Assembly: GCA_963921825.1 (NCBI GenBank)
Contig: OY997596.1
Location: 62,012,754-62,076,753 of the forward strand
Length of the DNA stretch: 64,000 nucleotides
Direction of reading: 5' to 3'
Origin: Erodium maritimum
Lineage: Eukaryota; Streptophyta; Magnoliopsida; Geraniales; Geraniaceae
This document shows positions 4,542 to 64,000 of this stretch, piece after piece. Below the pieces are notes generated by a model. The model did no database searches. It was not told where the DNA came from and saw nothing but the letters and a program-made list of their open reading frames with translations. The position numbers and the translations under genes were made by a program. Positions within the stretch are counted from its first letter, which is position 1. Every line of letters begins with the position of its first letter.

Positions 4542-7500
4542 ATGTTCCGTGCCCTCAACACGGCGTTGAGGTCACCACCGAACATTTCTTACGTCATTCT
4601 CCTCCTCCTCTCCCTCCTGATCTCGCCGGCGGCCGCCGCCGCCGCCGGAGCTCCGGAGAACGGAACAGCGGGTGTGACCTACGACGGGAGGTCGCTGATC
4701 ATCAATGGGAAGAGAGAGCTGCTCTTCTCCGGGTCCATCCACTACACACGCTCCACGCCCGACATGTGGCCCGACCTCATCCGCAAAGCGCGGGACGGCG
4801 GTCTGAACGTCGTGGACACCTATGTTTTCTGGAACGCGCACGAGCCTGTCCGAGGAAAGTTCAACTTCGAGGGTCGGTACGATGTTGTGAGGTTTTTGAA
4901 GCTCGTTCACGAGAGTGGATTGTACGTGACTTTGCGCCTCGGGCCTTTTATCCAAGCGGAATGGAACCACGGGTTTGTGATATAAAATTATAATCAGATC
5001 TTTAATTATTTGGTTTTTTAATTTATTTTTTTTGGGTTTTGGGGTGTTATACCCTTGATTTTGTTTGCAGTGGATTGCCTTATTGGTTAAGGGAGGTTCC
5101 GAACATTATATTCCGATCAGATAACCAGCCATTTAAGGTACTGTATCGTCTTAACGAGCGCACGTATTAGTTTTGTATTAGATTAATGGGTTAATTACGT
5201 ATATTTACCCAAATCTATTTATAAAATTCACATGCATGTAATAGTATAACATTATTCGTGTTTCTTTCTACAATAGAAACACGATTAATTAATAAACTCT
5301 TTAAGATAATATTTTTGTCTGGTCCCGATTCGGTGATATGGTGCTAAATTAATAACTCTTTTAATTAATAAATTTTGATGGCCCTATAACTATTAATTTA
5401 TAAAGTTTCAACTGTAGTTCTGTTAGTTTTGTCGATAAACTAAAAAATTCGGGCAAGTTAGTCCATAAGTTGTAATAACCCTTTTAATTAATGTCCAAAT
5501 ACTAATGATGTATTACGTGTTTTCTTACACAAACTAAGTATAAAATGTGTAATTTTTATATCCACTATGACTCAGTCAAATCTGAACATTTTTTTCCCAT
5601 TTACTAGCCGTTAGCTTTTGCAAACCTGGATGATATAGAGTAGTATTTGTAAAACATGCATAGTAAGGGTAGTTTTTTGCAAAACTGCCAGGGGTATTTT
5701 GAACGATTCATATCCAGATTTTGATAGAGTTATAACGGAATGTATATCACGGACTTTGCTACCTGATCTTTTCACATGTCTTTTACAAACAACTAAAATT
5801 CACATGTTATTTCTTGAGAAGACTCGATTCTTTCCAACGATACAACGATTGTTTTCTCAATCTGATCTCGGGTTCTCTTCTCGCAGTTTTACATGGAACA
5901 ATGGGTGAAGAAAGTGGTGGGCATAATGAAGGAGGAGAAACTATTTGCCTCCCAAGGAGGTCCAATCATTTTAGCTCAGGTGCATCGATCGTCTCAACTC
6001 GATACCAAAACTCGATTATACATGTCATTTAAATTATGAAGTCTGATCCGATATATATTACAGATCGAGAACGAGTACAATAGTGTACAACTAGCGTACC
6101 GAGAGCTGGGCATGCGATACGTGCAATGGGCAGGGAACATGGCCGTGGGACTAGACGTTGGAGTCCCGTGGGTCATGTGCAAGCAAACGGACGCTCCGGA
6201 TCCGATCGTGAGTACCAAAACTGATTTTCACACGTCCGATTGAGAAACATAAGAACTCGAGCCACAGCTCACGTCGTAGATCCAACGCTTCCTTTGGATC
6301 TTTCGTGTCATGTTTCTTGCTTGCACCGCAAGCGAGATCTCAACCGTGGTCACGTGCAGATCAACAGTGGTCACGTGAAATTTTCAGTTTTCTTTTTATA
6401 AAAAAAAAGTTATTATTATAATTAGCATTAAATTTTTTTTTAACCCTGTTTAATTAATCATTAGCTAAGGTGGTAGATAAGTTGGTTCGTGTTCGGTTCG
6501 TTGGGCAATCCAGTTCATTATAATTAGTCGAATTTGAACTCAAGATCAGTCATGTTTATAAACGAGTGGAGATCTACGAGAAATTTCAAGACTCGTGAGT
6601 CAACTCGTTTACAATTAAATTTGATATATAATTCGTATAATAAATTAAAATTATTTATATAAATTCTAGATGAATTTGATCTTGAGTATTTATTTTCGAT
6701 ACGGTTGATATTTTTATTTTAATGTAATTTTAGACAAAGTATCATGAATATGATCTAGTTTAGGTTCAAAAATCTAATAGGATAATATATTAATATATAA
6801 ATGATAATATGATGACATACATTAAGAGATATTTTGTTATTGAATTGACAATAAAATTGTTTTTCATACAGAATATGAAATTTAAACTTTATAACTTATA
6901 TCGAGTCATTTATCGTTTTATGTCACGGTGCCATTCGTAAGCTATTTTTATACTACTCGCTAGTATGAAGAAAATTATTAATTTCTGATTTGACTGAAAA
7001 AATTAGCTCCGCCACTGCAGATCAACGCGTGCAACGGGAGGCACTGCGGGGACACGTTCGTGGGGCCCAACAGGCCGAACAAGCCGGCGATCTGGACGGA
7101 GAACTGGACGGCGCAGTACCGGGTGTTCGGGGACCCGCCGTCTCAAAGGGCGGCCGAAGATCTCTCATTCTCGGTGGCTCGGTTCTTCGCGAAGAACGGG
7201 GCATTGAACAACTATTACATGTACCACGGAGGGACAAACTTTGGTCGGACGACCTCGGCTTTCACCACGACGAGGTACTATGACGAGGCTCCTTTGGACG
7301 AGTATGGTTTGTATAGGGAGCCCAAGTGGAGCCACCTCAAGGACTTGCATAGGGCTCTCAACTTGTGCAAGAAGGCCTTGCTTACTGGGAATCAAGGAGA
7401 GCAAAGGATTAGTGTTGATTTAGAGGTATGATCGGTTTTTTAAGTTATAAAATATTTTGACTCTTAGTTGTGGTGGTGTGAAAGGTTAGATAAGGCGGTT

Positions 7501-10500
7501 TTTGACTAAATATTAGAGTTGTTTCATCTTTTACTAATATTCTTACTTGTCATATTGATTCGGGTCAAAGTTCATTTCTAATCAATTCATATGTTAAATG
7601 ATGTTAGAGTCGGTCCTTTCACTTAACATGATAGACAGTCACTGGTGCCCTAACTTGCAAGACCCCAAAATATAGTTTAAGTTTATATTTCTTAAGACTA
7701 TAAAAGAGAAACGTCTAAAGATATTATTGGAAACTGAAATAAACATAAAATATAAATGTTGTAAGACTGAAAACATAGAAAACCGATCATAGGAATCAAA
7801 AGGTTGTCCAGCTGACACAATTTCTGGAGACTGAAAACACAGGTATGATCCGTCCAGAACTTAAAAGTTAGTGGTACTCAATTGACTGATACTCCTTTAC
7901 AGAATCAATGGTCGTCCTCCTCTCTCAATTAAACAATAAGGCTCCAAAAACGAATAGAGGCCAAAACCTGAAATGACCGGGAAGTATCTTAACGATACTT
8001 GGTAGATCCATCGCCATCTTATAACAGGTTAGAAAGTGATGGTGGTACCTATAAATCCCAAACAGTGTTAGGATCCGACCTCATAACACCTATCTCATTC
8101 TATTAGTTTTCTTGTATGAGTCATATCTAAATGTATATTATCAACAACCCATGCAGATACGTCACCGTTGACACGTGTACTATGACATATTTTCAGGCAA
8201 GATGGTACGAGGTTCCGGGGAGCAACACGTGCGCAGCTTTCTTAACCAACAACAACACGGGAACAGCTCTAACCATGAGCTTCAGAGGAACCGAGTACTT
8301 TTTGCCTCCTCGGTCCATCAGCATCCTCCCGGATTGCAGGACCGTCGTCTACAACTCCAAGTCCATAGTCGCGCAACACAACTCCAGAAACTTCCGAAAG
8401 TCCGAGGTTGTCGGAACTCTCAGGTGGGACATGTACAGAGAAGTCATCCCGACCATGGACAAGGTGGGCCCCAAGGACGTGTCGGAAAACCCTCGGGAGC
8501 TCTATGGCTTGCTCAAGGACACTACTGATTATGGATGGTTCACGACCACGTGAGTGCTTCTTGTCACATAGATTTAGATATAAATTTTTATCCGAATATT
8601 CATCGTGGGGTCGGATTGGATAAGATCGATTAGATCAGATATGGTTCCGTATTGTCTAGTAAAATAAGTCTAACGGTCGATTTTGATCAAAATCGACAAA
8701 TGGCCGGAAAAGAAAAGGTAGGGATAGAGAGAGAAAAGAAACATAGAGTAAGGTGGAATCTGTGCGTCAACGACACAAGAAAAGAGAAGAAACATCATTT
8801 TATTCATCTCGTATTTCTTTTTTCTTGTCCAATCGACCCCACTACAAATACTCTTAAAACACTTACAGTGAGAGTCGTTACGAGGATTGGTTCGACAAAA
8901 AAGTGAGGAAAATGTTCCTCTCTTTAGTCTCTTTTCTTCTGACACTTCACAATTCTGTTTCAAATAATTAACCTATCGTAAACTATTGATAGAGAATTGA
9001 TTTAAAATCACGTTTGATTCGACTGTACAGAATCGATCTCATTATAAATGCTCTTATTGAGTGTATGTCTATATATAAGGGTTTCGATGTGTTTGCTTGC
9101 AGAATCGAATTGGGCCCCGGAGATTTGCCGGTGCGGAAGGACATTTTGCCTGTTCTTCGGGTTACAAGTCTCGGCCATGCAATGATTGCCTTCGTCAATG
9201 GCGAATTTGTAGGTTAGTTTTGGCTCCTACTATTGTTTATGTGTCTTATGATGCTACATTTTTTATCAATAATTTATACTGAGGTTGGACATTTCTTTTT
9301 ATATTGATGTATAGTAAGTCAAAAACATTTCTTTTTATATTGATGTATAGTAAGTCAAAAACATTCTTTGACATGAGTTCTAATATTGTCTCAAGACCTT
9401 CCATCTTGAGATTGAGACCAACAAAAGGCCAACAAAAGTTAGAGAAATAGATGATAAAAGTTGGAATAATCCAAGTTGGACAAACAAACTTCGGTCAATG
9501 ATATTTTGTTACGTATATGTCGGGACTTATCAAACGTATTTTGGTCGCTCCTACTAATTCCGTCTGAAAAACCCGAATCTCCATTTTGATCCTCCCTATC
9601 AAATCGAGGATATTAGGTCCTGATCTGTATATTTTACAATCTTAAATATAAGTTTTTTTTATTATTTTACGATTTGTGAGGTCATCTTTACGTGTACAAT
9701 GTATCTTTATTGTAGGAGCCTCACACGGAAGCCACGATGAAAAGAGCTTTGTGTTCGAACATCCAATTAACTTGAAGGCCGGGGTGAACCAAATTGCCAT
9801 GTTGGCCATGACCGTGGGACTTCCGGTGAGTAGCTTCTCGTGATATACTTTTTACTGATAAAAGTGATAAATCTTAATCTTTTTTGCTCTTCACGCTTCT
9901 CAAGTTGATGACTTGTTACAATTTGAACACTAAAATATTTGTTTTGAACAACCAGTCATCTTAAAAAGTTTATCTCGTGATACTGACCGTGAAAACTGGG
10001 TCGAGCTTACTTAAAACTCAAGCTGATAGGTGACATGTGATTCTAACTTTTACATTCGCCTAATCGTGGTGCAGGACAGTGGAGCCTACATGGAGCACAG
10101 GTATGCAGGGCCCCAAGTCATATCGATCCTGGGGCTGAGCACGGGAACCCTAGACCTAACCATGAACGGTTGGGGACATCATGTTGGGTTAGACGGTGAG
10201 AAGCTCCGGTTGTTCACCAATGGTGGAGTGAAAAGGGCTCAATGGAGTAAAGCTCCTCAAGGTAAAGGACCGGCCCTTACATGGTACAAGGCTCGTTTCG
10301 ATGCTCCTGAAGGAAACGACCCTATTGCCATCCGCCTAAATTGCATGACCAAAGGAATGGTTTGGGTCAACGGGTTTAGCATCGGTCGATATTGGGCTAA
10401 CTATCTCTCCCCACTCGGACAACCTTCTCAAACGGAGTAAGTAAACAAAAATGTAGTATGAATCTTTAATATGACATAATTCTTGTGGGTTCATACTTCT

Positions 10501-40045: not shown

Positions 40046-43000
40046 ATGGCCGAGTTTTACGAGCCACTACCGAGTCACGAGGAGCAGCTTCAGGCCGGTG
40101 CGAGAACTACGCGCGTTGCCTCTCTCGACGTCCTCCGAGGCCTCTCCGTGTTTGTGAGCTTTCTCTCTTTTACTTCTCCATTTCTCAATTCTGCGCGATT
40201 CAAAGGTTTCAGTTGACGACCTTGTTAGTGTTAGTTCAATCGGTTACTGTTTGGTTGGTTGGAAAATCGGGAAAGTGAGAAAGGAAAGTAGATTTTCTCA
40301 CATTATTAGTGACGTGCGATTCAGAAATTTCAGTCAATGAGCTTATTGCTCAATCAGCCACTGTTTGGTTGCTAGGAAAGTGAAGGAAAGTAGATTTTCT
40401 CGAATTATTAGTCCTGTGCGATTCAAATTTTTCAGTCAATGAGCTTATTGCTCAATCAGTCACTGTTTGGTTGCTAGGGAAGTGAAGGGGAGTAGATGAC
40501 AATACTAATCTCGGCTTCGAAATTTCGGTCAACGGCCTTATTTGCTTAATCGGTTCTTGTTTGGTTGCTCAGAAAATGCGGGAAAGTGAAAAGGAAAGTG
40601 GATGGCGGTATTAATCTTAGTTTTTTTTTTCATTTTCTTTCAGCTCATGATGCTTGTTGATTATGGAGGCTCATTTGTTCCGATCATTGCTCATGCACCA
40701 TGGAATGGTGCTTACTTGGCTGATTTTGTGATGCCTTTTTTCCTCTTTGCTGCTGGAGTGTCTCTAGCTCTGGTCTACAAGGTACCAGATCTTATTTATT
40801 TGTGTCCTTCTCATTTTTCTGTATAATTAATTGTTTGTTAAACTTTAAACCACTGAACATATTATGGTTATGATTCGTGCTTATGTTTATGGCATTGAGA
40901 ACTCATATTTTATTGTTGATTTTACAAACACCAGAAAGTACCAAACAGAGTAGAAGCTACAAGGAAGGCAGTGCTTAGGGCTGTGAAACTATTTTTGTTA
41001 GGCATTATCCTTCAAGGTAATTTCGCAATCCTGATAAACTTACACTCATGTGCTTCGAAAGCTATTTTGTGAAAATCTGGAGCTCTTTTGAGCAATGGGT
41101 GTTGAATTATTTTAAATTTCTAAACAAGGTTATAAACGTATGATTAATATGATATGCTTGATTGTACTGGAACTTAGATAGCTGGAATGGAGTTTTGATT
41201 CTTTCACTTTTCAAATTCTATTTTGCTTTTGTTTCGCCTGATTGGTATCAAAGATATTGGGTGTGCCTATTTGGTTTTATTTCAGGTGGCTATTTGCATG
41301 GAATTACCTCCTTAACATATGGTGTTGACATTGAAAGAATACGATGGCTGGGGATTTTGCAGGTATACACACAGTATGTAGTAGTCAAGTATTATCTCAA
41401 GGAACTTTGACTTTTGCTTATTAGAACTTTGGTATTATACTTGAACCTTTGGGAATGACCAATAGCCACTGTGGAACTAATTTGGGAATTGGTTGCACAT
41501 ATGTACTGTTCATTTATAAGTTTTTACAAACTTTACTGATATCATAAACTTGTTACTCATTGTTTGGGATACTGAAGAATAATGTATAACACTAATTTGT
41601 GTTCTTTATCAACAAATGCAGAGGATATCAATTGGATATATTGTTGCAGCTTTATGTGAGATTTGGATTCCATCTCATATGAGCAGAGAAGTGGATTCTT
41701 TCAAGAGAAACCACTCACAGTGGTAAAAAAATTTAATATCTGGAATCGTTTTAAATATGACAGTTCTGCCAGTCTGGCAAATAGTATGTTATTAATTACC
41801 ATCGGTACATTTGCTAAAATTTTGTGAACACTCAAGGATTTTTCTTTCATGGTGGTTAATTTTGTCTTTTGTTCCTCAGGTGCATTATATTTTCACTCTC
41901 AGCAATATACCTGGGGTTATTCTATGGTTTATATGTTCCGGATTGGAAATTTGAACTTTCACCTTCAACCCCATCTTTGCCTCCGTTGAACGACAATTAT
42001 GTTTATATGGTGAGTGCATTGATCCTCATCACTTTTGTTTCTGCATGTGGTTCAATTATTAGATCATGACACAACATAACATTAGTGAGTAATAAATAGA
42101 TGGATGGGTCCAGAGTAAGTGTCTGGTGCTGTCAATAAGTTAAAATAAGAGAAACTAAATGATTTTGTATCTCTATCCACTCTATCCCCAAGAAAGTTTT
42201 ACTCAGTGGACTGATCGTTCTATCCATTCCACAACATTTGTAACTGTGTGTTGATTAGGCTTCCTTCCCTCCTGTAGTTCCACTGAATCCTCAATGAAGA
42301 GGCATACTACTAAGCACTAACATTTTTCAGAAACTGAATGTTTTAGATTGTTATACCTAAAAAATACTAGATACATCAAAGCCTACTTGGCCAAGTGATA
42401 AATTCTCCGGGTTCAATTCTTATGGATGCAGGTAAACTGCTCAGTTAGAGGTGCTTATAGCCCTGCATGTAATTCTGCTGGAATGATTGATCGCTATGTT
42501 ATCGGCATTGATCATCTATATAAGAAACCTTCTTACAGAAACCTTAAGGTATCTTTGACATGGATTTGCACATTCTATATTGCTGAAAAACATCATACAT
42601 AAAAACCTTATGCCTAACCCAATAATATTTCACAGGAGTGTAACTTGTCCACTGACGGCCAAGTTCCAGAAACTTCTCCTTCCTGGTGCCATGCCCCTTT
42701 TGATCCTGAAGGCATTTTAAGGTGGCTTAACTGTTCTCTTTTCTAATTTCTTGTCTACTTCAATCCAATACTCCATTTTTGGTTACCATGAATCCCCTTT
42801 ATTAACTTATAACAATTTTTTTAAGAAATCTATTGTTCTACCTCTTCACAGCTCCATAATGGCTGCTGTGACCTGCGTAATTGGGCTTCAGTATGGTCAC
42901 AGCCTTGCACACTTGCAGGTAAGATGTTCATGCACCATTAATCTTCACCCTATTTCTCAATCTTATATCCCTTGTTTATTAGTACCATTATTATGATACT

Positions 43001-51426: not shown

Positions 51427-51512
51427 CCCCTCACTCCCCCAACTCCACTCTCCATCAACACACCAAAATCTCAGAGTAGTCACAGAGACTGTGAGCGATT
51501 TCAGCCTCAAAA

Positions 51513-53919
51513 ATGTCGAAGGACGTGAGCGAGGAGGGGCAGAGCCACCACCACCACGGCAAGGACTACGTGGATCCGCCGCCGGCGCCGCTGATCGACA
51601 TGGCGGAGATCAAGCTGTGGTCGTTCTACAGAGCGCTCATCGCCGAGTTCATCGCAACGCTCCTCTTCCTCTACATCACCGTCGCCACCGTCATCGGATA
51701 CAAGAACCAGTCCGACCCCTGCGGCGGCGTCGGCGTCCTCGGAATCGCCTGGGCCTTCGGCGGCATGATCTTCGTCCTCGTCTACTGCACCGCCGGCATC
51801 TCCGGTAACCACACACACACTATCTCAGTATCAATCTCTGTGAATCTGTTTTGTTTAATTTATCCTTAATTACAGCTTAATGACAAATTTTATCGTTAGA
51901 AAGTAGTTAAGAAGTTATAAAAAGGTGAAAATACCCTTCATAAATTTATCCATGTTTCATTTTTCTCATATCTATGAAGGGTATTTTCGTCATTTTACAT
52001 CTCTACTTCTGATAAATTAAAAAAAATAGATAAACTTGTTTGGAAAAAAATTGATACTAATTTAAGACATGTGTAATTTACTTTTATCTCATATAAATGA
52101 ACCAAATCAAGCTGATTCTGTTACTTAGATCTTTTTAAAAAAAAATACATATATGAAAGGGTATTTTCGTCATGATAAATTAAAAGAAGGTAATTTAACT
52201 ATTTAAGGTAAGTGTGATTTTATCTCATATAAATGAACCAAAGAAGCTGATTTTGTTACTTAGATTTTTAATGAAGGATAATTGCAAAATGAAATCTCAA
52301 TCATTTTTCCCATATTATGAAAATGACTAATTTGCCCGTTCATATATAATTTGGAATCCTGATGTGTATGTATTTTAGCAGTTATTTTCTTTTTTATTAA
52401 AAAAAATATATTTTTTGTATAGTTGATAAAAAAAATAGATAGGAGTGGTATTTGCAAAAAAAAGAAATAGCTTGCCTATAATATTATACAACTCACAAAG
52501 ATGAGGGTAAGTTTTTGTAATGTCATGGTATTAGTCCTGAATTGGAAGGAGCTTATCCAGTCAAATCCGAAAATAAATGTTTAAAACATGAATTTAATTC
52601 GAAGCCCATTTCTGTATTTGGATTCAGGTGGCCACATAAACCCTGCGGTGACGTTCGGGTTGTTCCTGGCCAGGAAGGTGTCGCTGATCCGTGCGGTGGC
52701 GTACATGGTGGCTCAGTGTCTCGGAGCCATATGCGGAGTGGGGCTGGTCAAGGCCTTCATGAAGCACCCCTACAACTCTCTCGGTGGAGGTGCCAACTCG
52801 GTGGCAGCGGGATACAGCACTGGCACAGCGTTGGGCGCTGAGATCATTGGCACCTTTGTGCTCGTCTACACCGTCTTCTCTGCCACCGACCCCAAGAGGA
52901 GCGCTCGCGACTCTCATGTCCCGGTAAGGAACATTAGGAGAATTGAACTATTTTCGGCTACAAATCTGTTATCTTTAACGAAATTTAGCCATGTGACAGA
53001 CACTAGACATCGTTTTTAAATGACAGTTTTACCCTTCAAATTATGTGAGTCGTAATTTATAACCCTCATCTATACTCAGTTTTGCAATTTAGAACCCTTA
53101 TATATGCATTTTTACAGGATACTCTCGACTTTTAGTGAAAAGAAAAAAATCATGTAATGCAATTTTTTTAAATGACGGTTTTACTCTTTGCATTACATGT
53201 GTTCCAAATGTGTTCCAAACTCCTGTTATGCAATTTGAAACCCTTATATATGCATTTCTCGAGAGGTATTCTCGATTTCTTGTAAAGAAAAGTAATCTCG
53301 TTAGTGAACTTGTAGATAAAAAGTATTGTAATGCATTTTTTTAAATGACGGTTTTCTCTTTGCATTACATGTGTTCCAAATGTGTTATGCAATTTGAAAC
53401 ATATATGCATTTGTCGAGAGGTATTCTCGATTTCCTTGTAAAGAAAAGTAATCTTGTTAGTGAACTTGTAGATAAAAAATACTGTAAAACGTGTATAGTT
53501 CACCGTAAGTTTTTGCAACTGTCTTTTATTAATGTAAGGTCCTGATTTTCTTCTTGTGGGTCATCAGGTTCTTGCTCCTCTGCCAATTGGGTTCGCCGTG
53601 TTCATGGTGCACTTGGCCACGATCCCGATCACCGGAACTGGTATCAATCCGGCGAGGAGCTTCGGCGCTGCCGTGATCTTCAACCAGGAGAAGATTTGGG
53701 ACGATCAGGTACATTGATTAAACCGAAACCCCAGATCAGTGATCGATCTTCTGAACATCTGTAGGTGATAGATTAATGTGTTCGATTTTTTTCGTACAGT
53801 GGATTTTCTGGGTCGGACCATTCATCGGAGCACTGGCGGCGGCGGCGTACCACCAGTACATTCTGAGAGCAGCCGCCATTAAAGCTCTCGGATCCTTCCG
53901 TAGCAACCGATCCAACTGA
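51513..53919 (+). CDS. PIP2: Plasma-membrane intrinsic protein, PIP2-type aquaporin
   Basis: Four exons, 51513-51804, 52628-52923, 53568-53708 and 53800-53919, give 282 residues, the usual PIP2 length and exon pattern. It forms tetrameric water channels in the plasma membrane. Both NPA boxes are present ([11 protein letters not shown], Asn102; [11 protein letters not shown], Asn223). The aromatic/arginine filter reads Phe82, His211, Thr220, Arg226, the water-selective PIP set. Gating residues known from spinach PIP2;1 are conserved: Ser116 in RKVS, His194 in loop D and Ser275 in ALGSFRSN. The N-terminus [19 protein letters not shown] is acidic and carries a four-histidine run. The C-terminal [17 protein letters not shown] and the gene context suggest the PIP2;7/PIP2;8 subgroup. 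Confidence 0.97.
52260..52530. repeat. Decayed MITE-like stretch in PIP2 intron 1
   Basis: Begins GGATAATTGCAAAATGAAA and carries AAAATGACTAATTTGCCCG and ATTTGCAAAAAAAAG phrases like the family A group. No clean right end was found. Confidence 0.4.
52930..53520 (-). repeat. Repeat related to SYF2-intron MITE, with internal ~185-bp duplication, PIP2 intron 2
   Basis: The first part (GTTATCTTTAACGAAATTTA, then TTTTAAATGACAGTTTTACC) is the inverse of phrases in the MITE at 58519-58924. From about 53150 a block with GACGGTTTT, CATTACATGTGTTCCAAATG, CGAGAGGTATTCTCGATTTC and GTTAGTGAACTTGTAGATAA occurs twice in tandem, with small differences. Confidence 0.75.
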
Positions 53920-57732: not shown

Positions 57733-58320
57733 GTGTTTTCGTGGTTTGGTTTTGCCCCCAAATCAGAAACCCTAGAGATTGATAAAGAGCATCGACATCG
57801 GATCAGTTTCTTCAGAGGTTCGTTTCTCTGGTCTCTACTATCTCTTGATTTCTCTTTCTCTATAGGTTTTGTTCCAAGCTCTGCTAGCGTTTGTTTGGTT
57901 GCTGAGAAACAGTAGGAAAATTGACAATTTGAAGTTTTCTTATTCGCTTGTTAGGGATTGGAATGGTCGGATGAATATGGATTAGCTCAGTGATGGATGT
58001 AGTATTCGTTGGCTTGATTTTTCAGTGTTTATTATCTTTGCCCCCTTTTGATTTCGCAGTAAAATGTGTAGATTACGATACTCTAATTACTTTTATTGTA
58101 TGTACTTTGAAGCTATTTCATTATGTTTTGTAGCTGAACATGGAGGTGTTGGTCGGTTTATGCTTCTTTGATCTCAGTTCTAAATTGGGTCAAATTGAAC
58201 TTGTTAGAATTTTGTTGAGAAGTGTGTCGTAGTAATTTTGGTTGCTGAAAGCTAAACCTTGGTTTAATAGTTAGTTTATTGTGTGTTAAACAGTACCGGT
58301 ATAGGAGAAAGTAGCATAGG
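57733..58320 (+). other. SYF2 5' untranslated exons and leader intron
   Basis: A leader exon carrying AGAAACCCTAGAGATTG ends TTCAGAG at 57817 before donor GTTCGT. The intron ends TTAAACAG at 58293, and 27 further untranslated bases lead to the ATG. The intron contains GTTTGGTTGCTGAGAAAC at 57892-57909. Confidence 0.6.
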
Positions 58321-61116
58321 ATGGCTGGTGAGAGAAGAGTCCATCCGGATTGCAGAAATGCATCTAATCCTTATCATGAGTGCAGTGAGTATTGCTTCAA
58401 AATCATTGCCGAGACATTGCCACGGATCGATGAATCAGGTTTGTTTACATTCAGACCTTGCGGGTTTTGGAATGAATTAAAGTTAGTATGATTTCCGTTT
58501 GTCGATTTGTTTAATTAAGGAATGATTGCAATAAACTTGTGGTGAACTGTGTGCGTTTTGTAAAATACTATTGGTGAATTATTTCTTTTTTTGCAAAAAA
58601 GATCCCCAACTATTTTTCGTCTGCAAATCCACTAAGGGAGTTATTTTGCAAAAAATTCTGAAGTTACCGTGCAAAAGTGTATACATGAGGGTTCCAAATT
58701 GCAAAACATGTGTACATGAGGGTTACAAATTGCAAAACAGGTATAATGTCAAGGGTAAAACTGTCATTTTTAAAAAAATGAAGTCACATGACTAATTTCT
58801 GTTAAAGATAACAAATTTGCAGACAGAAAATAGTTGGGGAATGTTTTTTTGCAAAATAAAATAAGGTTCACGGATAGTATTTGCAAAACGTGTATAGATC
58901 AACTCAAATTTTTGCAACCATCCCTTTAATTAACAATGCTTCTTTCCCTCTAATAATAGAACGTTAATGTTACTTATGAGTACTTAGTTTGACATATATA
59001 TAAAACAATATGTAGATGATAGTAAATGACTCCGTCTGTAAATCAAATCAAGATAGTTATTTTATCAAACAAATTTGTATGTACCATTTCAGAAACCGTC
59101 CAAGCTAGCAGCTCCAGGAGTAAGTCTATCATGCCACCCCCTGATGTTGATGAAGGTGGAAATGATGAAAGAGTTGATGATGAAGAGAATAATGACAAGG
59201 ATGAGCATGCTGACGCAGATAATGTCACAGAAGATTTCACAAACCTCACTGGGAGGAAAAAGAAATTATTTGAGTTGCGGCTTAAGATGGTAAGTTTAGT
59301 GTAGTTGAAGCTTTACCGAATCTAAGAAATGAATTGGTGTATTGGGTTTTGACATTGACAATCTAGGCTTATGGCTATATTTTTGTAGAATGAAGCAAGA
59401 AAAGCCAATCAAACCGCCATGGTAGCTGAGAAGAAAAGAACGGAAGCTCCACAAGAGTCGAGGGGAATTTCTAAACAAAAATGGATTGAGGAGCGGAAGA
59501 AGAAAATTGGGAAGCTTCTAGATGCAAATGGTTTGGATATGACGAAGGCCTACATGCTTGATACTCAAGATATGGCGGAGTCAAAGTATAAGAAGTGGGA
59601 AAAGGATCCTGCTCCATCTGGCTGGGATGGTATGTACTATGTACTCATTTGTCTTTTATATTGAGTGCCATCATGATTGCCTTTGTCTCCATATTTAACC
59701 TTTTCGAGTCTATACTCATATGTCATATCTTAATGATTCGGTGAAGAGGAACATATATTTGCCCATCCCAATTTCTTCCTGAGCTAAAAGTCTGTTGTTG
59801 CATATGCTGTTATTCTCATATTCTTATTTTTGAGGAACTGTTTTAAAAGAACTAGTTGGCATTGTTTATGACGTCGTCTAGTAGTTTATGTTTTATTGTT
59901 TACCGATGATTTCATTTTCATGTCGTGTTACGAAAAAAATGACGATTTTCGTCTATTTTGTAACTTTGTTCTATTGTGACACGTGAAAATCCACAAGGGT
60001 AGCCATGCGTCTGTGGTAGGTTCATGTGTTTGTGGGCAATTCATGAATACCCTAATTTCATTCTACAACGTGTCATCTTGCATCAGTTTCTTTTATATAA
60101 CGCATTCTATTGTAATTGTGTGATGGGGAAAAGGTTCAGACTCAATGATGAAGTTAACATAGTTTTGGTAAAACAGTTTTTAACCAGAAAACGTTGTACA
60201 ATGCATACAAGAAGAGGACGAAGAATGTCGAGGTTAACCTTGAAGATTACAACAAAATGAAAGAAGCTGATCCGGAGTTCTATCGTGATGCATCAAGTCT
60301 CCAATATGGAAAGGTACAGTAAAAATTATGGGAATTAAATTGCTTTCTGTTAGTTTTTTATTTATCAACTAAATCGGGTATATCAAAGCATGTTTTGGGA
60401 TCTACACCTTGCTAATGTAGAAGTAAAGGAGCACCAAACAATTTTTTATTCCTGAAGAACTTTTTAAGATTGATATATAAGCGAGAAATGAGCTCCTTTA
60501 TGTAGAAGATGGTACTAAATTCATGACCCCCACCTTGAGAGAGGCTCAGTAGAGAGAGTGAGATAGGCCCAAAGGACTGAATAGAGAGAGGGGAGAGGCC
60601 CAATGGAAATTGGGAAAAGAAATTACCAGGATGTAAACCCAGGTTCCAAAACCCAAGTTTAAGTGTTGGGACGTGAACCCGAGTCCCAAGACCCAAGTTC
60701 AAGTGCTGGAACTTGAACCCGGGTTCCAAGACCCAAGTGCAAGTCCTACTGGGACCTGAATTCAGGTTTCAAGACCCAAGTTCAAGTGCTGATATTTGAA
60801 CCCGGGTCCCAAGAGCCAAGTTCAAGTGCTTTTGGTTCTGGTAGTTTGTTAAAGTAAGATATTGAAGCTAAATGGTGTATCTGCGCAGGCCCCAAAGACT
60901 TCCAAGGAGAACATTGAGCGAATGGTGAAGGAGCTGAACGACCGAGATAATAAGCGCCAAGCATTTAGCAGGAGGAGGAGGTTCCATGAAGAGAAGGATA
61001 TCGACTCCATCAATGACCGTAACGAGCATTTCAACAAAAAGATCGAGAGAGCCTTTGGGAAGTACACCCTCGAGATCAAGAACAACCTTGAACGAGGAAC
61101 TGCTCTTCCCGATTAA
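58321..61116 (+). CDS. SYF2: Pre-mRNA-splicing factor SYF2 (GCIP-interacting protein p29)
   Basis: Five coding exons, 58321-58438, 59093-59289, 59389-59629, 60177-60313 and 60889-61116, give 306 residues. SYF2 belongs to the NTC/Prp19-associated spliceosome and acts in nuclear splicing. The first exon encodes MAGERRVHPDCRNASNPYHE and CSEYCFKIIAE, a Cys-containing module found on plant SYF2 proteins. Exon 2 is an acidic, low-complexity linker ending in TGRKKKLFELRLKMNEARK. The rest is the helical, highly charged SYF2 domain (KQKWIEERKKKIGKLLDANG, VFNQKTLYNAYKKRTKN, and the invariant end FGKYTLEIKNNLERGTALPD). Intron 1 contains a complete MITE and intron 4 a minisatellite; the reading frame is whole. 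PEARLI 4 follows tail to tail. Confidence 0.96.
58519..58924. repeat. MITE (family D) with perfect 9-bp target duplication, SYF2 intron 1
   Basis: A 406-bp element begins GGAATGATTGCAATAAAC and ends ATTTTTGCAACCATCCC. Both flanks are TTTAATTAA (58510-58518 and 58925-58933). Inside, TACATGAGGGTTCCAAATTG and TACATGAGGGTTACAAATTG form a short direct repeat. The related, inverted sequence lies in PIP2 intron 2. Confidence 0.9.
59940..60050. repeat. Family B repeat piece in SYF2 intron 3
   Basis: Contains TTGTGACACGTGAAAATCCA, CAAGGGTAGCCATGCGT and CATGTGTTTGTGGGCAATTC, matching phrases of the copies in the UPL3 and bZIP introns. Confidence 0.65.
60638..60835. repeat. ~42-bp minisatellite in SYF2 intron 4
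   Basis: Four to five imperfect units of CCAAGACCCAAGTTCAAGTG plus CTGGAACTTGAACCCGGGTT lie in tandem, each itself partly palindromic (CCAAGTTC against GAACTTG). The intron is otherwise AT-rich. Confidence 0.85.
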
Positions 61117-61654
61117 GGTAGCTTCTGTTCGCTTGAGGAAGTTCTCGTGCAAGAATAAGTGAGTTCTTGTATCGTTTTTTTAATTAAAAAAAATTATACC
61201 TTTTTATTGGCATTTTGATCCATACACATGGAAACATAATCTTGTCACATTGTGTTGTAGTTTTTTCATCTCATTTTCAAGTGAATTTGATCACTAGCTG
61301 TTTATGAAGCAATGATATGGCTACTAACGCTTGTTTAGTTGAACTGCGACGCTCTACTAAACATAATATAATTCTTGAAATGCCCTTTATACCCCTATTA
61401 AACCAGCGCGGGCTAATACCATTGAAAACGCTCTTAGAGTATAACACAATTAAAGGGAAATAAAAAGCAAAGTTGTTGGAGATTAAGATGCATTTATACC
61501 ATTTTTAATGAACTAAACTCCAAAATTATTAACCTTAAACCATTCCCAAATCCACTAATAAACACCAATATGAGACATGTAATAACATTACAACATTGCT
61601 GCTTCTCACAATATTATTCAGTACTGAAGTAGTAACAACTCTTCAACTTGAACA
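61117..61654. other. Convergent 3' regions of SYF2 and PEARLI 4
   Basis: Only 538 bp separate the two stop codons. The interval is AT-rich, consistent with two 3' untranslated regions; nothing else is evident. Confidence 0.6.
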
Positions 61655-63605
61655 CTACACCAGCTCATCTAACAAGGCTTTAAAATCAAAATTCTCTACC
61701 TTAGACCTTTTCATCGAAAAATCCTTTTCGAATTCAGACAATTCAAGCTTGATCTTACTCAATCGAGCTTCAGTTTCAGCTATCCTTACCTTAACATCAG
61801 CAATCTCCTTCTCTTTCACTGCCACATCCTCCCTCTGAGCTTCCAACTCCCTCGTCACTGAACCCTTCACAGCTTCGATGCCTCGTTGCAGAACAATGGG
61901 CTCGATGACAACTATGATCTCATTAAGTACCCGTCTTAGCCAAGCGATATCAATCTGTACAGACTCTACGTCTTTGAGTATTGCAAGTATTTCTTTGACT
62001 TTGGCGTTGGTCAGATTGATGGTTGGTGTAGTTTGGAGCTCCTGCACGACGAAGCACACACACTCCAAGTAGTAGGAGCGCAGGGCGGGCGATTCCAGCT
62101 GGCACTTCGCTGCTATGTCTCCATGCTTGGAGAAGATGGCTTCCAGGACCGTGCTGATGCTTGCTTTCACATGGTATTTCCCGACCCATGCTCTTGGATC
62201 ATGATCAGAAATCACGGAGGTCATGCCTGAAGAGTCACTATCGTTGGATTTTTGTGTAATGCCTGAGAAATTGAAGCTCAACGATCGGTCTGTTAGTTCT
62301 TTGTTGTATTCGACAGGTTCAGGATCATGAGATGGAGCTGTTTCTGATGAACTGTGAAGCTTTCCATTGTTTTTGGGTTCATGAAGACCTTTGTTGGCTT
62401 CTACAGCTTCAGAATCGATTAACTGAACAATTTCTGATGAACTGTGAAGCTTTCCGTTCTGTCCGGGTTTGTGAAGAACTTTGTTGCCTTCTACAGCTTC
62501 AGAATCAATAAACTGAACAATTTCTTTCCCGTTCTGTTCAGGCTTGTGAAGAATGTTATTGCCTTCTTCAGAATCAAGAGACTGAACAATTTCTGATGAA
62601 CTGTGATGCTTCCCGTTCTGTTCATGTTTGTGAAGAAGGTTATTGTCTTCTTCATCTTCAGAATCAATAAACTGAACAATTTCTGATGAACTGTGAAGCT
62701 TTCCATTCTGTTCGGGTTTGGTAATGAAACCTTCTATAGGAGCAGAGACGTTACGAGGCACTTCCCGGGGCTTAGACTGAGTTTTCGGTTCCTTGATTCT
62801 CCTATCGAAGCTTTTAGGAGCATTCAGCAGGATGGGGTCTGAAGAGCAAATGATTGTGAACCAAACAAGTATGAAATGAAGATGAATCTTCCAGTGCAGA
62901 TTCTTCAGAAGGTTTTTGAAGTGAACATGATTAAAACAGGGGATGATTGCAAAAAAGTACCCTGATGTATTGACTTTTTGCAAGTTGTGGCCCTGTCTAT
63001 GAAAATTGCAACGAAATGCCTTGTATGGTACAAAGAGGAAGACAATGAAGGGAAATGAAAAATCTAAATTATTTGTTTTTACATATTAATTTTAAATTTA
63101 AAGTTTCAATGGTAAAATCATCAGTTTGGAACAAATTTACATATAGTGCAACAAGAAGACAAGTTCAAATATTATCATAGAAGAGGGCTAACAACTTGCA
63201 AAAAGTCAATACCTCAGGATACTTTTTTGCAATTATCCCTTAAAATATAGACAGACTTTCGTAAAGAAAACTTTAGCCATTGTAGTTTATTAGTAATCCA
63301 TAATTAGTCCAAACAAGACGTTTTAGTGTACATATCTACAAACTTAACCCATTAAAATACTCTCAAAAGGACGAGTATGAAATCGATAGACTATGATGAT
63401 CCAAAGAACAAACCAATTATAGCCAATACGAAAAGAGGCATCAAAATTCAAATTACTCATACCCTAAAGTTAAGTACATACCTGAGTTCTGTTTACCCTT
63501 CCTTCCCAAAGATTCAGAAATTTTCTGGCTGCAATATTGACCACATTGATGGTAAGGATTTGATGCATTAGGGCAATTTGGGTGCACCATCGTTGTCTCA
63601 ACCAT
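61655..63605 (-). CDS. PEARLI 4: PEARLI 4 (phospholipase-like) family protein
   Basis: Two coding exons on the minus strand, 63482-63605 and 61655-62838, give 435 residues; the junction is phase 1 (TCA G / AC CCC). The first exon encodes MVETTMVHPNCPNASNPYHQ and CGQYCSQKISE, almost the same module as SYF2's first exon. Residues 82-223 are five tandem units of ~28 residues of the type KPEQNGKLHSSSEIVQ-xIDSE. Residues about 259-435 form the PEARLI 4 domain (WVGKYHVKASISTVLEAIF, IAAKCQLESPALRSYYLE, IDIAWLRRVLNEI) and end in a long coiled coil. The function is unknown despite the name; no phospholipase residues are seen. The open frame running upstream of 62838 is intron. The intron contains a MITE. 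Confidence 0.9.
62294..62719 (-). repeat. Coding tandem repeat in PEARLI 4 exon 2
   Basis: Five in-frame units of roughly 70-93 bp share TTCTGATGAACTGTGAAGCT on the plus strand. Unit lengths differ by whole codons, and one unit lacks the HSSS part, so the frame is kept throughout. Confidence 0.92.
62940..63239. repeat. Full-length family A MITE in PEARLI 4 intron
   Basis: The clearest copy of the family: 300 bp, beginning GGGATGATTGCAAAAAAGTA and ending TACTTTTTTGCAATTATCCC, with inverted ends of about 55 bases. The flanks TTAAAACAG (62931-62939) and TTAAAATAT (63240-63248) agree in 7 of 9 bases. Confidence 0.85.
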
Positions 63606-63622: not shown

Positions 63623-64000
63623 CTGTATGGAAGATAGAATAAATTTAAGATCTTATCATCCCATTTCCTACTCATTTCCCATGTTTTCTCAGCAACCAAA
63701 CAGAGGGTACCACCTATCAGTTACTCAAATGTTCATTCATACCTAGAAACTCAAACAACATCCATCTAAAACACGGTTTAATGAACCCATTTCCTACTCT
63801 TTTCCCACGTTTTCTAAGCAACCAAACAGAGAAACTCAAGCAATAACGGATGAGCATATAGCTTCACCAACCCACTTCTTACTCTTCTCCTACACTTTCT
63901 CAGCAACCAAACAGAGGTTACCACGGATCAATTACTCAAATATATACCCATACCCAGAAACACATGCAACAGCCCATGAGCATATAGCTTCACCAACACA
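63623..64000 (-). other. PEARLI 4 leader intron with tandem units (open at window edge)
   Basis: On the minus strand an acceptor (CCATACAG) at 63623 ends a leader intron that runs out of the window. It holds three imperfect tandem units. Each contains CTCTGTTTGGTTGCTGAGAAA or a close variant (near 63684-63705, 63811-63831, 63896-63915) and GGGAAAAGAGTAGGAAATGG-like text. Two of them carry the phrase ATGAGCATATAGCTTCACCA. Confidence 0.65.

Follow-up and report, generated by a model that had tools for sequence, protein, structure and literature searches.

Two neighbouring genes of Erodium maritimum, one coding for the splicing factor SYF2 and the other for a protein of the PEARLI 4 family, begin with homologous first coding exons that stand in front of otherwise unrelated proteins. 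Both genes lie in the window, the whole 64,000-nucleotide stretch of contig OY997596.1 that was analysed (C9:62012754-62076753); the genome searched comprises 763 Mb in 40 contigs. The same pairing occurs in a duplicate block on C7, and the sharing of the exon is older than the duplication that produced the two blocks. An old duplication of the first exon between linked genes, probably from SYF2 to PEARLI 4, is held here with moderate confidence as the best explanation.

The exons and splice sites of the two genes (Table 1) were deduced from the DNA sequence, without transcripts. The models bear out the original prediction of small first exons, 118 bp in SYF2 and 124 bp in PEARLI 4, each ending in phase 1 with G. 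The last bases of both are TCAG, the next exon is likewise entered in phase 1 in SYF2 and in PEARLI 4, and a separate phase-1 first coding exon is found in all four module-bearing genes on C7 and C9. In the window the genes are convergent, with stop codons 0.5 kb apart and module exons 5.0 kb apart. The module encoded by both exons reads VHPxCxNASNPYHxCxxYC...I.E, and identity between the two window copies is 51% when they are aligned as a pair and 49% in the alignment of all four. Their Smith-Waterman alignment scores 112, where 20000 shuffles reach 48 at most, which rules out chance likeness and agrees with the earlier claim that both proteins start with one and the same Cys/His exon. Used as a tblastn query, either window module finds the other genome-wide (1.8e-7 and 2.2e-7). 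Beyond residue 41, six comparisons of SYF2 with PEARLI 4 proteins give no similarity (all E at least 0.68), as expected from the predicted unrelatedness of the downstream domains. Scores so far above the shuffles, together with the dissimilarity of everything that follows, mark these as two homologous first exons before unrelated proteins. In Pfam searches SYF2 residues 152-299 match PF08231 (127.5 bits against a curated cut-off of 23.5; 7.1e-37), the family of Arabidopsis At2g16860, and PEARLI 4 residues 215-433 match PF05278 (185.2 bits against 29.9; 1.9e-54), the family of At2g16900, At4g35110, At2g20960 and At4g38550.

Within the genome tblastn located the module four times, in the window pair and in the C7 pair; a fifth row is weak (E 0.49). 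These searches scored first-look candidates alone, five per search, and diverged copies could escape them. The C7 copies of SYF2 and PEARLI 4 lie at 45.55-45.56 Mb, with two further genes that have counterparts on C9 in the vicinity: one is DsbD-like (C7:45.596 Mb, 90% identical), the other bZIP (C7:45.804 Mb, 79%). Synonymous divergence (Ks) between C7 and C9 amounts to 0.71 in SYF2 and 0.91 in PEARLI 4. Of the four comparisons of SYF2 with PEARLI 4 modules, three give an infinite Ks and the fourth gives 1.86, over only 39-41 codons. Because module Ks is saturated while that of the gene duplicates is not, the sharing of the module predates the C7/C9 block duplication, and the earlier suggestion of an old event holds.

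On C9 the strands are bZIP +, DsbD-like -, SYF2 + and PEARLI 4 -; on C7, with the block turned round, they are bZIP +, DsbD-like -, SYF2 - and PEARLI 4 -, SYF2 being the sole difference of the four. SYF2 and PEARLI 4 are therefore on the same strand on C7, and the inverted copy that the original prediction called for is not required. The convergent order of the window may be due to a later local inversion, and either the same-strand or the convergent order may be ancestral. A third, more diverged block at C7:26.76-26.95 Mb contains bZIP, DsbD-like and PIP relatives; neither tblastn nor the genome search with PF08231 returned SYF2 or a module row there.

The neighbourhood extends to Arabidopsis. 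Two aquaporin coding stretches precede SYF2 in the window, a neighbourhood shared with Arabidopsis At2g16850. Arabidopsis locus codes are numbered in chromosome order, so the PIP2, SYF2 and PEARLI 4 genes are close together in that species also. In the respective papers At2g16850 is PIP2;8 and At4g35100 is PIP2;7 (PMC12319296), At2g16860 is Syf2 (PMC545797), At2g16900 (PMC5073745) and At4g35110 (PMC10935123) are PEARLI 4, and At2g20960 (PMC4969306) and At4g38550 (PMC4202796) are named as members of the PEARLI 4 family. SYF2 and PEARLI 4 would thus be long-standing neighbours, as part of the explanation favoured here and at the same moderate confidence.

The distribution of the module bears on the direction of copying. 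All four genomic PF08231 rows fall inside the two SYF2 genes and none elsewhere. PF05278 gives 27 rows, of which 13 pass the cut-off, and the best two are the SYF2-linked PEARLI 4 genes; by tblastn, at five candidates per search, these two alone of the 27 carry the module, which sets them apart from the rest of the PEARLI 4 family in this genome. Outside Erodium, a Phaseolus vulgaris protein labelled unknown (table row L20 of PMC4039509) begins MSDERAVHPDCRNASNPYHECSDYCF and is a SYF2 with the module, 72.5% identical to the window SYF2 over its whole length. Six SYF2 sequences in the PDB align to the window SYF2 only from residue 86, 93, 94, 100, 168 or 215 to the end region. With the module alone as query none of these six is found, and the sole match, an antifungal peptide at E 0.19, was judged to be chance. 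The module thus lies outside the Pfam domain of SYF2 and is unmatched in the six solved structures, which we take to be animal, fungal and algal. The closest of them, PDB 8xi2_M, has 563 residues and bears the name PPIase cyclophilin-type protein, with its SYF2 part at 334-562; it is perhaps a cyclophilin-SYF2 fusion, presumably from an alga.

Before the duplication of the C7/C9 block, one neighbour would have had its small first coding exon duplicated, and the copy would have become the first exon of the other. Homologous first exons of the same phase, unrelated remainders and a sharing older than the block duplication are what was found. As a separate unit ending in phase 1, with next exons that are also in phase 1, the exon could be joined to an unrelated protein by splicing with the reading frame intact, and the copy would have been kept because the boundary allowed this. 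SYF2 is favoured as donor, the copy running from SYF2 to PEARLI 4, since bean SYF2 has the module and the only PEARLI 4 genes found with it are linked to SYF2. These same two observations speak against a move from PEARLI 4 to SYF2, or acquisition by both genes from a third that is now lost or too diverged to detect. The six SYF2 sequences of solved structure, being without the module, imply that SYF2 also gained it, and these other sources are possible, though clearly the less probable. Recent gene conversion between the neighbours, in place of old descent and constraint, would be conceivable from the closeness of the genes and the exon common to both. It is rejected as very improbable: the modules cluster by gene, with 97/117 and 95/123 bases shared between copies of the same gene against 71/117 and 77/123 between those at the same locus, and module Ks is saturated; moreover, third codon positions of the window modules agree in only 19 of 39 codons.

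Copying of a whole cassette of promoter, leader and first exon in inverted orientation had been proposed from a 17-mer, GTTTGGTTGCTGAGAAA, in both leader introns and from the convergent order of the window genes. The 17-mer is indeed in both leaders, with one exact copy in SYF2 and seven copies at up to 3 mismatches in PEARLI 4 (five exact; 85-126 bp apart; three in the window and four past its end). It is not particular to this pair: the genome holds 371 exact copies (0 for the reversed control) and 388 of its 16-mer form (3 for the reversed control). Allowing up to 3 mismatches, the window has nine matches where 0.24 would be expected, some of them in putative first introns of two other kinds of gene, and three further matches lie in 30 kb of C7. 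All 16 matches in the window, the adjoining sequence past its end and the 30 kb of C7 are in sense orientation within putative first introns, of four gene kinds. Four blastn comparisons of SYF2 with PEARLI 4 leaders gave 75 rows, the best being about 30 bp around the motif, which other first introns also hold. Of these rows 57 are not motif on motif; the top two (4e-5 over 23 bp; 0.007 over 17 bp) both fall on a partial PEARLI 4 copy of the motif, and the next has E 0.068. The 23-bp match, from one comparison (SYF2 on C7 against PEARLI 4 on C9), reaches about 10 bp past the motif on its upstream side, and is the only hint of longer likeness between the leaders. By comparison, the C7 and C9 leaders share 263 alignable columns for SYF2 and 301 for PEARLI 4. 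The leader motif was accordingly rejected as proof of a copied cassette, on account of its 371 copies and of a leader likeness limited essentially to the motif. The leaders offer little or no specific evidence for such a cassette, which the same-strand C7 pair also disfavours, and its copying as a whole is improbable.

Several points weigh against the favoured duplication of the first exon from SYF2 to PEARLI 4. Its direction is no more than probable, as judged from the genes of this genome and bean SYF2, and absence of the module from other PEARLI 4 genes comes from tblastn scoring five candidates per search. A profile search of 31 loci (27 PF05278 and 4 SYF2) recovered one of the four known modules, that of the window PEARLI 4; these loci reach about 1.5 kb past each match, and the three other known modules lie outside them, that of the C7 PEARLI 4 just outside, which leaves this check with little weight. 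The C7 block is also the looser of the two, with bZIP and SYF2 about 244 kb apart on C7 and about 38 kb apart on C9, and the C7:45.5-Mb block yielded no PIP. Finally, the module has a poor predicted fold and no Pfam domain, and the putative metal binding is read from the pattern of residues.

Seventeen columns are invariant in the four-module alignment. Among them are the candidate ligands H8, C11, H19, C21 and C25 (SYF2 numbering), all of which are kept in bean SYF2. No Pfam family matches residues 1-41 at E of 1 or less in the two window proteins or the two C7 N-terminal pieces. AlphaFold models of the two window modules have a mean predicted local distance difference test (pLDDT) score of 66 and a single helix at 21-32, and as models neither support nor exclude a metal knuckle. 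Pattern scans gave 43 stretches in viral contigs and 20 in prokaryote genomes, none of them confirmed as a relative. Judged from its residues, the module would most likely serve as a small interaction tag, metal-bound or cysteine-based, at the very start of SYF2 and PEARLI 4. A small knuckle with bound metal, leading into a helix, is a plausible reading of it, at somewhat less than an even chance.

Table 1. Coordinates of the genes, introns, motif copies and neighbouring features (window positions, except where C7 is given)
Feature	Position	Strand	Remarks
SYF2 gene	58321-61116	+	five coding exons, 306 residues
SYF2 coding exon 1, shared module MAGERRVHPDCRNASNPYHECSEYCFKIIAETLPRIDES	58321..58438	+	118 bp, ends in phase 1, last base G
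SYF2 coding exon 2	59093..59289	+	gene model
SYF2 coding exon 3	59389..59629	+	gene model
SYF2 coding exon 4	60177..60313	+	gene model
SYF2 coding exon 5, including stop	60889..61116	+	gene model
SYF2 leader intron	57818..58293	+	splice sites read by eye from sequence
PEARLI 4 gene	63605-61655	-	two coding exons, 435 residues
PEARLI 4 coding exon 1, shared module MVETTMVHPNCPNASNPYHQCGQYCSQKISESLGRKGKQNS	63482..63605	-	124 bp, ends in phase 1, last base G
PEARLI 4 main exon	61655..62838	-	gene model
PEARLI 4 leader intron	63623..64000 in window	-	inferred length 895 bp, on to 64517 in the window frame; seven-copy motif array
C7 PEARLI 4 module	C7:45550078	+	tblastn
C7 SYF2 module	C7:45559533	+	tblastn; 9.4 kb from the C7 PEARLI 4 module
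Motif, exact, single copy in SYF2 leader	57893..57909	+	window scan
Motif, exact, PEARLI 4 leader	63685..63701	-	window scan
Motif, 1 mismatch, PEARLI 4 leader	63811..63827	-	window scan
Motif, exact, PEARLI 4 leader	63896..63912	-	window scan
Motif match	29820	-	read as lying in the intron that follows exon 1 of a gene continuing to the DsbD-like stretch; joining putative
Motif matches, four	40249-40575		putative first intron of a gene starting near 40046, which we take to be a heparan-glucosaminide acetyltransferase relative
Two aquaporin coding stretches (MIP, PF00230)	51495..53016	+	beside SYF2, before it; neighbourhood shared with Arabidopsis At2g16850

The motif itself may be a first-intron regulatory element. 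Its surroundings were sampled at 29 of the 388 16-mer copies, all on C1, one of 30 loci having been dropped as adjoining another. When oriented, 27 of the 29 have a leading G and 26 a T ahead of that G, with weaker A- or G-rich bases following. Upstream in sense, the mean best donor-site score is 3.11 against 1.54, 2.16, 2.19 and 2.45 in four controls, with no significance computed, and strong sites number 1 of 29 against 1-2 of 29 in controls. This excess is too mild to place the motif copies of the genome at large in first introns. In the first introns of PEARLI 4 and the 40-kb gene the motif occurs in tandem, mostly 85-140 bp apart with some gaps of 266-314 bp; tandem copies are also found at C2:1608813-1609371 and C1:155949884-155950650, known there from DNA position alone. 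Past the window, about 4.3 kb from its end, begins a large 171/340-bp tandem array (positions 4840-9533 of the adjoining sequence). Known plant motifs, namely TTNGATYTG, CGATT and the five consensus motifs of PMC8157754, are likewise located in first introns; none of these seven occurs in GTTTGGTTGCTGAGAAA, whichever strand is read. A literature string search for the motif returned only a paper on a herbal decoction for gastritis and no plant paper, and a search on a first-intron motif CTGAGAAA turned up animal papers by title or abstract and no plant paper.

The shuffling of first exons with compatible phases from one gene to its neighbour is a known kind of event, and the sharing between SYF2 and PEARLI 4 is a new instance of it. 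A separate first exon, the same end phase and unrelated downstream domains are common to both; the present case is unlike the usual one in that the copy is between a spliceosome protein gene and its unrelated neighbour and the linkage has lasted. No description of this sharing was found in the open-access literature, most subscription papers lying outside its coverage.

At2g16860 is listed among Prp19-related proteins in PMC9134077. The module could be a docking tag with bound metal, peculiar to plants and so far without a name, through which a Prp19-related splicing protein and PEARLI 4 reach the same partner, the exon having been duplicated between neighbours that stay linked by joint work; this is an unlikely possibility. 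That the tag gives SYF2 and PEARLI 4 a common partner is likewise a guess to which only a low probability is assigned. The motif from which a common origin had been argued appears to be a frequent element of first introns in this plant. The exon shared by SYF2 and PEARLI 4, if its duplication is true, would provide a clearly delimited natural example of two unrelated linked genes, one of them for a splicing factor, with a first exon in common, and would offer a concrete test of whether gene neighbourhood and a common N-terminal tag reflect joint function.

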